64,000 bases of DNA from Acidobacteriota bacterium (lineage in GTDB: Bacteria; Acidobacteriota; UBA6911): the NCBI GenBank assembly GCA_012719455.1, contig JAAYAJ010000007.1, positions 20,502 through 84,501 of the forward strand, given 5' to 3'. The stretch's first letter is position 1; each line of letters begins with the position of its first letter. Of the stretch, positions 20,092-64,000 are shown piece after piece. Below the pieces are notes generated by a model. It was not told where the DNA came from. It worked only from the letters and a program-made list of their open reading frames with translations, and did not search any database. The translations under genes and the position numbers were made by a program.

Positions 20092-21048
20092 TCAGTGGAG
20101 GGTGGCGTCCAGACCCAGGCTTTTCAGCAGGGCGACGAGCTCGTGCATGCGGGCCTCGGAAGGGGGAACGGCCTCGAGCACCTTCCCCCGGTTTTCGATC
20201 CGCTGGTACTTGACGACTCCGAGGTTGTGGTAGGGGAGGAGCTGCACCATCTCGACCGCCGCACCGAGCGAGAGGCAGAAAACGCCGATCTCCCGGATGG
20301 CGGCGTCGGAGTCGTTGAATTCGGGAATGACCGGCACCCGGATCTGTATCTTCCCCCCGCCCGCGGCTATCAGCCGGGCGTTGTCCAGGATCCGCTCGTT
20401 CGACACCCCGGTCGCCGCCCGGTGGAGCGCCCCGTCCATCTGCTTGATGTCGTAGAGAAAGAGGTCGGTATGGGCAAGCGCGCCCTGCACGACATCCGCG
20501 GGCACGTGCCCGGTGGTGTCCAGGGCGGTGTGTATCCCCGCCTCCTTCAGTTTTTCAAGGAAGGGGAGGACGAATTTGGGCTGGCACAGGGGCTCCCCGC
20601 CCGAGACCGTGACGCCGCCGCCCGAATTCTCGTAGAACGGCCGGTCCCTGAGGACGCGCGCAAGGAGATCATCGAGAGTGTAGTCTGTTCCGCAGATCTC
20701 GAGCGCCTTCGGGTAGCAGCCGCGGGCGCATGCGCCGCAGACGTCGCAGGAGGAACGGTCGATCCGGACCAGGCGGATCTCCTCCCCGGTGCCGGGCCGT
20801 TGGACCCGTTCACCTGGGGAGAGGGCCCCGCGGGGGCAGAGCGGGAGGCAACGGCCGCAGGTATCGATCCCGATGCAGCGCGCGGCCAGCCAGCTGAGCT
20901 GCGGGGCGAACGATTGCGATTCGGGGCTGTGGCACCAGGGGCAGGTGAGGGGACACCCTTTGAAAAAAACGGTGGTGCGGATTCCCGGGCCGTCCTGGAT
21001 CGAAAAGCCCTGGATGTCGTAGACCTTCCCTGTAAGCTCCTTTGCCAT
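20092..21048 (-). CDS. Glycyl-radical enzyme activating enzyme
   Basis: The 318-residue radical SAM enzyme has C32-x3-C36-x2-C39 (GCPLTCPWCH), then a ferredoxin-like insert with two four-cysteine sets (CIGIDTCGRCLPLC and CDVCGACARGC), then GGGVTVSGGEPLCQP. This layout is that of activases for glycyl-radical dehydratases, lyases and decarboxylases, which use S-adenosylmethionine to abstract hydrogen from the glycine of their partner. The start is three bases after the stop of the glycyl-radical enzyme, so translation is probably coupled. It is oxygen-sensitive and so implies anaerobic use. The activity is secure and its partner is clear from position. Confidence 0.93.
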   Translation of the reverse strand: MAKELTGKVYDIQGFSIQDGPGIRTTVFFKGCPLTCPWCHSPESQSFAPQLSWLAARCIGIDTCGRCLPLCPRGALSPGERVQRPGTGEEIRLVRIDRSSCDVCGACARGCYPKALEICGTDYTLDDLLARVLRDRPFYENSGGGVTVSGGEPLCQPKFVLPFLEKLKEAGIHTALDTTGHVPADVVQGALAHTDLFLYDIKQMDGALHRAATGVSNERILDNARLIAAGGGKIQIRVPVIPEFNDSDAAIREIGVFCLSLGAAVEMVQLLPYHNLGVVKYQRIENRGKVLEAVPPSEARMHELVALLKSLGLDATLH

Positions 21049-62597: not shown

Positions 62598-63605
62598 TTA
62601 CAGTCCCCTGGCCGTATACCCTTTGCGCGTGTGGACCTTGAGTTTCAGGGGCTTCCCCTTGGAATCCTTCATGTCGGTCTCGACCTTCACCTCGATTTTG
62701 CGGAATTTGCCGTCGCGGGCCGGGTTGCTGGAAACGTAGCCGATGCTGTACTGGCTCCGGAGCAGCCGCGAGATGTTGTTGAAAATGGCGGGGAGTTCGG
62801 TGCTGAAGCGCGGGAAGTACGCCTGCCCCCCCGTCAGCTCGGCGAACGACTTCAGGCGGTTGTCACCCATGAGGAATTCCAGGTTCTGGGACTGGCTGAT
62901 CCACCCGCGGGCATCGGCGTAGGCCCGGTACCATTGGCCGAGCCCGATGGCATAGATGGAGGCGTTGGCCTGGCGGCATTTTTTCAGTGCGTCGTCGTAA
63001 GTGCGGCGGCTGAAGGTATCGAGCCCGGTGCTGATCAGAACGACGGCCACCTTCCCCTCGGTCTCCTCCGTGCGGTCCAGGACATCGATGACGGCGTCGG
63101 AAAGGTTGCTCTCGTCCCAGGCGGTGTAGGTGAACTGCCGGATGGCGTCATGGACCTTTTGCGGGTCCTGGGTGAAATCGCTGACGATGGTGGTGTGCAT
63201 GTCATACCCCACGACGGCGACCCAGTCCTTGGGACGCAGGCTGCGGGTAAAGTAATACATGGCGTCCCAGACCTCGTCGAGGAAGTAGTTGACCTTCTTG
63301 CTGTACTCCACCAGGAGCACGACCGTGACGTTGGCATCCACCGGGGAGAAATTGAGGATCTCCTGCTTGACCTTGTCCTCGTAAATGGTAAAGTTTTCCG
63401 GTTTCAGGCCCGTGAGGACGTTCCCCTTGGTGTCGGTGACCAGCACCTGCAGCGTCACCAGGTCCACGGCCACCGAGATGGCGGTTTTGCCGCGGGGCGC
63501 GTCGTCTTCTTCCGGCGCGGCCGGAGCGCCTGGGGAGTGACACAGCATGTACAGGATCAGCGCCAGCGCCAGCGACCCCTTGATTGCTCCCATTCGGTAT
63601 GTCAT
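62598..63605 (-). CDS. Acidobacterial-type VWFA-domain exported protein
   Basis: The 335-residue protein has a signal peptide (MTYRMGAIKGSLALALILYM) and the pattern of acidobacterial VWFA-related proteins: VTLQVLVTDTKGNVLTGLKPENFTIYED, then a VWFA domain from about residue 105. The MIDAS motif DxSxS reads EYSKK, so its Asp is Glu and the second Ser is Lys, which may weaken metal binding. LISTGLDTFSRRTYDDAL lies later. The C-terminal region ends in a strand-rich segment (IEVKVETDMKD). The role is unknown, perhaps in adhesion or envelope. It is upstream of a NUDIX gene and divergent from the LysW-like gene. Confidence 0.78.
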   Translation of the reverse strand: MTYRMGAIKGSLALALILYMLCHSPGAPAAPEEDDAPRGKTAISVAVDLVTLQVLVTDTKGNVLTGLKPENFTIYEDKVKQEILNFSPVDANVTVVLLVEYSKKVNYFLDEVWDAMYYFTRSLRPKDWVAVVGYDMHTTIVSDFTQDPQKVHDAIRQFTYTAWDESNLSDAVIDVLDRTEETEGKVAVVLISTGLDTFSRRTYDDALKKCRQANASIYAIGLGQWYRAYADARGWISQSQNLEFLMGDNRLKSFAELTGGQAYFPRFSTELPAIFNNISRLLRSQYSIGYVSSNPARDGKFRKIEVKVETDMKDSKGKPLKLKVHTRKGYTARGL

Positions 63606-63740: not shown

Positions 63741-63805
63741 TCTCCGGGTTGAGCCGTCAGCGGGTCTTCCCGGTCTCCCGGAATGCTTGAATTTGGAGGT
63801 ACACT

Positions 63806-64000
63806 GTGAGCTACTGCCCGGAATGCGAAACCGTGATCGAAGAGGACATTGAAGAAGTGGGTGAAATCCTCACCTGCCCCGAATGCGGGGTGGAACTCGA
63901 GGTGATTTCCCTCGATCCCCTGGAATTCGATCTCGCCCCGATCGACGACGAGGACGACGACTGGGACGACGACGAAGGGTATGACGACGAGGACGACGAC
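63806..64000 (+). CDS. lysW: LysW-like zinc-finger carrier-type protein, 3' end beyond window
   Basis: This gene is not in the ORF track. GTG 63806 follows GGAGG by seven bases. The open frame reaches the window edge (65 codons, no stop seen). Residues 1-40 read SYCPECETVIEEDIEEVGEI, then LTCPECGVELEVISLDPLEF, matching LysW: two CPEC-type knuckles, an acidic middle and EVISLDPL. LysW carries amino-adipate or glutamate on its C-terminal Glu (ending EDWGE) in lysine or arginine synthesis. Here DDDWDDDEGYDDEDDD follows, so the acidic tail is longer than usual, and the modified Glu cannot be identified in this window. The gene symbol is by resemblance only. Confidence 0.65.
   Translation, partial: MSYCPECETVIEEDIEEVGEILTCPECGVELEVISLDPLEFDLAPIDDEDDDWDDDEGYDDEDDD

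Follow-up and report, generated by a model that had tools for sequence, protein, structure and literature searches.

A LysW-derived protein with a zinc ribbon and a long acidic tail was encoded at the end of the 64,000-nucleotide Acidobacteriota sequence analysed here (the window), and by its sequence and genomic context this protein is not an amino-group carrier. Comparison with its relatives somewhat favours a reading in which the zinc ribbon has lost the carrier function and, in this genome, most likely serves LarE, whose gene lay directly downstream, as a small accessory protein. The features of the region were as follows.

63806..64000, plus strand: LysW-like zinc-ribbon protein with an acidic tail; 65 aa inside the window and about 5 aa more on contig C94, which belongs to the same genome (G000).
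63795..63799, plus strand: Shine-Dalgarno-like GGAGG, read from the sequence, 6 bases before the GTG start.
63806..63940, plus strand: LysW-type globular zinc ribbon (CXXC-X16-CXXC, EVISLDP), from PF21344, the phmmer match to 3wwl and the fold matches.
63941..64000, plus strand: acidic tail, IDDEDDDWDDDEGYDDEDDD in the window, from the sequence; the same kind of tail was present in the family relatives read.
62598..63605, minus strand: divergent gene for a VWA-domain protein (PF00092, 1.2e-7; synteny).

The ORF (window positions 63806–64000, plus strand) began with a GTG start codon and contained, in order, CPEC-X16-CPECG, GVELEVISLDPLEFDLAP, and an Asp-rich stretch that reached the last base of the window. 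After EVISLDPL it read DDEDDDWDDDEGYDDEDDD, and Asp and Glu made up 84% of tail residues 47–65. The Pfam model of the LysW globular domain, PF21344, matched the ORF with 50 bits (cut-off 27, E 2.3e-13). The LysW equivalog model TIGR01206 and the model NF041070 scored 48.3 and 35.3 bits on the 65 residues in the window, below their cut-offs of 53.2 and 75, respectively. A phmmer search with the window protein gave T. thermophilus LysW (3wwl) with an E value of 1e-9, and also T. kodakarensis 5k2m. The AlphaFold model was of modest quality, with a mean pLDDT of 71 (80–87 in the zinc-ribbon blocks and 52–67 in the tail), and all five of its best PDB matches in Foldseek were LysW chains. By sequence and predicted structure, the protein belongs to the LysW fold family. 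Its four cysteines were conserved, and its sequence held no extra free cysteine.

No stop codon was reached inside the window, since the contig ends where the window does: the window corresponds to positions 20502–84501 of contig C57, which is 84,501 bases long, and the gene was cut by the assembly. The first bases of contig C94 of this genome, when it is read from its end along the minus strand, are GACGACGAGGACGACGAC, and they repeat the last 18 bp of the window exactly. On this contig the tail ran on as DDEDDDDEEDY and a stop codon, so that the protein ended in EEDY; the EDWGE-like end that the original prediction had named as evidence against itself was not found there. The joined protein was about 70 residues long; the exact number of Asp codons where the two contigs join is uncertain. 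The order of tail, stop codon and larE, together with the sequence between them, matched that of the congeners G004 and G006. Contigs of two other genomes (G009 and G181) likewise broke in or at the acidic LysW-like gene. Each of the 11 family relatives with an ORF read as far as the stop codon had a tail of the same kind, and therefore the tail is not a product of chance. Tail length and end residue differed greatly among the acidic LysW-like proteins, and the Asp/Glu-rich tail is probably disordered. The LysW-like protein with zinc knuckles and EVISLDPL and the unusually long acidic tail, both described from the window sequence in the original prediction, were thus borne out.

In LysW and ArgW, the amino group is attached to the C-terminal Glu of an EDWGE motif, which LysX or ArgX reads through a GSWGR motif (PMC10433800). 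Replacement of this terminal Glu by Ala abolished the function of Natrinema ArgW (PMC10433800). The window protein, read to its end on contig C94, had no C-terminal EDWGE/Q with a terminal Glu or Gln. A LysX/ArgX ligase was searched for in its own genome, which is 97% complete, and no match was obtained above the cut-off of 275.6; the best match, with 27.6 bits, lay in a frame of 1,086 aa that is presumed from its length to be CarB. The genome contained a single LysW-like gene, the second match being noise at an E value of 1.77. A LysA-like gene scored 290 bits, slightly below the cut-off of 298, and fits the DAP route to lysine without proving it. Four related genomes (G008, G007, G001 and G009; loci L116–L119) carried RimK-type ATP-grasp ligases with 156–184 bits against the LysX model, below the cut-off, with no LysW-like gene nearby.

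Across a survey of 297 Acidobacteriota genomes, the Pfam LysW domain was found in 119 and LysX above the cut-off in 34. The C-terminus was read for 96 LysW-like proteins from this survey and from close relatives. Fifteen ended in EDWGE or EDWGQ, every one of them in a genome with LysX, and the other 81 ended otherwise and occurred in LysX-less genomes or as second paralogues. Seven of these 81 were in survey genomes with LysX, each of which had a separate LysW-domain match beside LysX. One genome of the window's own family (G014), outside the 297-genome draw, encoded, apart from the acidic protein, a LysW at another site that ended in VEEDWGE and was followed by a LysX with GSWGR. This LysX was ruled out as an exception to the rule, as its own EDWGE LysW lay directly upstream of it. 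A canonical copy next to LysX coexisted with the acidic form in eight genomes in all (G014, G017, G075, G095, G135, G188, G228 and G263). Relatives of the window's family ended in Phe, Tyr, Asn, Arg, Ile, Val or Asp, and in one case Glu. In two genomes of family f45 (G098 and G235; loci L214 and L236), a second LysW-like protein of 51 aa, ending in LADEDEE or AVDEEEG, was encoded away from larE, in addition to the larE-adjacent copy. Most of the LysW loci from other phyla that were examined encoded proteins ending in EDWG(E/Q), and a LarE match was found among them only in Halorubrum (L110), more than 6 kb away.

The EEDY end, the missing LysX and the real LysW that coexists elsewhere together argue that the acidic protein is not an amino-group carrier. 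A genuine LysW/ArgW carrier whose tail is extended and which receives its load from a ligase not yet recognised would agree with the LysW fold and signature, and also with the ...DWDE, DWEE or WNE ends, terminal Glu included, of some larE-adjacent homologues outside the window's family. However, the terminal Glu of overlapping gene pairs is explained by the overlap itself, since an acidic codon that precedes the TGA stop of an ATGA overlap has to end in A and can only be GAA. With the end residues of the protein and its family, the LysX-less genome, the eight genomes with a canonical copy and the loss of function in the Natrinema mutant also against it, this explanation is very improbable. The original prediction had suspected a function other than that of a normal carrier, such as a binding protein, and the EEDY end and the missing LysX support this suspicion. 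It had also named the absence of LysX as a sign against itself; LysX was indeed absent, and this absence supports a different function instead of refuting it. Neither the larE neighbour nor the paralogue family across the phylum was visible in the sequence available to it.

In the window genome, the larE start codon (ATG) lay 96 bp past the stop codon of the acidic gene on contig C94. The encoded LarE, of 278 aa, matched TIGR00268 with 289.6 bits (cut-off 150) and contained SGGVDS, Cys96 and Cys99 (CFFC) and a third cysteine, Cys176. A CXXC-C set of this kind is shared by most LarE homologues, and in the T. maritima enzyme it coordinates a [4Fe-4S] cluster (PMC9283937); by analogy, the LarE of the window genome is predicted to be of the [4Fe-4S] type. 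The genome also encoded LarB (280 bits) and LarC (206 bits), on contigs other than that of larE. A LarA homologue scored 294 bits, below the model cut-off of 460, and the T. maritima control was also below this cut-off.

The gene larE lay directly downstream of the acidic gene, on the same strand, in the window genome and five relatives (G002 and G004–G007), and a HAD-type gene was inserted between the two in G008, G011, G012, G014 and G017. This hydrolase gene (PF13419; loci L134, L127, L124 and L131) was seen in some genomes of family f1 and in f4, and it had no match in the window genome. Further direct pairs, with the acidic gene upstream of larE, were identified by coordinate comparison in G050, G087, G098, G118, G135, G143, G167, G188, G228, G235, G242, G249, G256, G270 and G277. 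The same-strand pair thus occurred in nine families (f1, f4, f24, f32, f40, f45, f51, f63 and f75), and it was retained while the outer neighbours changed between lineages. Eight genomes (G050, G118, G143, G235, G242, G249, G270 and G277) had a 4-bp ATGA or GTGA stop/start overlap, and G098 had a 1-bp overlap (TGATG). Such overlaps are a usual sign of translational coupling.

The two genes were apart in families f18, f29, f39, f19, f71 and f36 and in the genomes G001 and G019. Many sampled genomes with LarE lacked the acidic protein, and six genomes with the acidic protein (G105, G148, G165, G207, G240 and G289) gave no LarE match at an E value of 1e-40; therefore neither requires the other everywhere. 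The link to larE was strong in part of the range of the acidic protein and not universal, and the accessory role for LarE that its sequence context suggests probably applies to part of that range. No natural fusion of a LysW-like domain to LarE was found in 20 larE loci.

The partner proposed for the acidic protein, LarE, is the ATP-dependent sulfur transferase of nickel-pincer-nucleotide synthesis. By analogy with LysW, which docks on LysX, LysZ and LysY, the zinc ribbon would dock on LarE, and the acidic tail would shield the basic substrate cleft of LarE or help to bring sulfur, iron or another metal there. Partnership in an operon is not proof of physical partnership, and we infer the binding to LarE and the role. 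A stronger and less probable form of the proposal is that a LysW-derived acidic zinc ribbon, translated in coupling with LarE, works with the [4Fe-4S] LarE as a fourth, hitherto unrecognised component of nickel-pincer-nucleotide synthesis in Acidobacteriota and would either deliver sulfur or metal or control substrate access.

In the main rival to an accessory role, the acidic zinc ribbon serves many partners in a general way, as a regulator or chaperone might, and is found beside larE by inherited gene order only. Its occurrence in the six genomes that gave no LarE match agrees with this, as do the rhomboid, VWA or PilZ-response-regulator genes that adjoin it in other lineages and the conservation of wider gene order, such as the block of PilZ response regulator, LysW-like protein, LarE and TMEM260-like protein. 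However, the larE neighbour was kept in nine families with differing outer neighbours, with the overlap in eight genomes, and the neighbouring VWA and PilZ genes, being divergent, are not co-transcribed, so that this rival is rather unlikely. A narrower version of the LarE proposal is a sulfur relay, in which the zinc-ligand cysteines would take persulfide sulfur from a cysteine desulfurase and pass it to [4Fe-4S] LarE. SufU in Fe-S assembly is the model for this analogy, and there is, to our knowledge, no settled route by which sulfur reaches [4Fe-4S] LarE in cells. The four conserved cysteines of the acidic protein would suit such a relay, as would the LarE beside it, which has the same CXXC-C set as T. 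maritima LarE; the latter enzyme turns over catalytically with sulfur from IscS (PMC9283937). The relay is nonetheless improbable, given an acidic protein with no free extra cysteine and the many sampled LarE genomes that lack it. An accessory role for LarE in a broader sense is the reading retained here.

The divergent VWA gene was kept beside the acidic gene in families f1, f4 and f6; at loci L123, L124, L127 and L131 it was likewise divergent, and several relatives had more VWA pairs downstream. A divergent PilZ-domain response regulator adjoined the LysW-like gene in families f51, f36, f32, f63 and f40 (L208, L211, L216, L221, L232 and L233). In family f18 (L198, L199, L200, L227, L230, L231, L235 and L139), the acidic gene had a rhomboid-family gene nearby on the other strand; in most cases a CarboxypepD_reg-like gene lay downstream and was co-directional. 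The plasmid search gave no match.

When compared with the LysW/ArgW carriers (TIGR01206, NF041070 and PF21344), the window protein shared the zinc-ribbon globular domain, the four cysteines, ELEVISLDPL and the overall acidity, whereas it differed in the long acidic tail, the lack of EDWGE and LysX, and the TIGR01206 score below the cut-off. Natural-product pathways of Streptomyces use LysW-type proteins as carriers, which shows that recruitment has gone beyond lysine synthesis. Those carriers use a ligase and a terminal Glu, both of which are missing for the window protein. The locus resembled the LarE sulfur insertase system (LarB, LarC and LarE) in the acidic gene directly before larE and in the presence of larB and larC in the genome, but larE was paired with a LysW-like gene and larB and larC lay on other contigs. 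We know of no LysW-like component in the known Lar systems.

By sequence, the acidic form constitutes a widespread acidobacterial family of LysW-derived paralogues in which EDWGE is replaced by an Asp/Glu-rich tail. The LysW tree, built on 47 columns, was poorly resolved; the free tree separated the f1/f4 group from the remaining acidic proteins, and the canonical carriers as one clade were not rejected by the AU test (p-AU 0.49). Two origins of the acidic form are not claimed, as this p value leaves a single carrier clade possible. A small text search of the literature that combined LysW or LarE with acidic tails, with zinc ribbons or with Acidobacteria returned no such protein, which does not imply absence from the literature; as far as this search goes, LysW-derived proteins that have a different role and are linked to larE are apparently undescribed.

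Most sampled Acidobacteriota genomes with a PF21344 match had no LysX. Annotation by domain only would name such proteins LysW and would imply an aminoadipate lysine pathway that does not exist there. The family is a case of a covalent carrier protein turned to something else without its ligase, and, if the link to larE is functional, it would add a testable accessory factor to the synthesis of the nickel-pincer cofactor.
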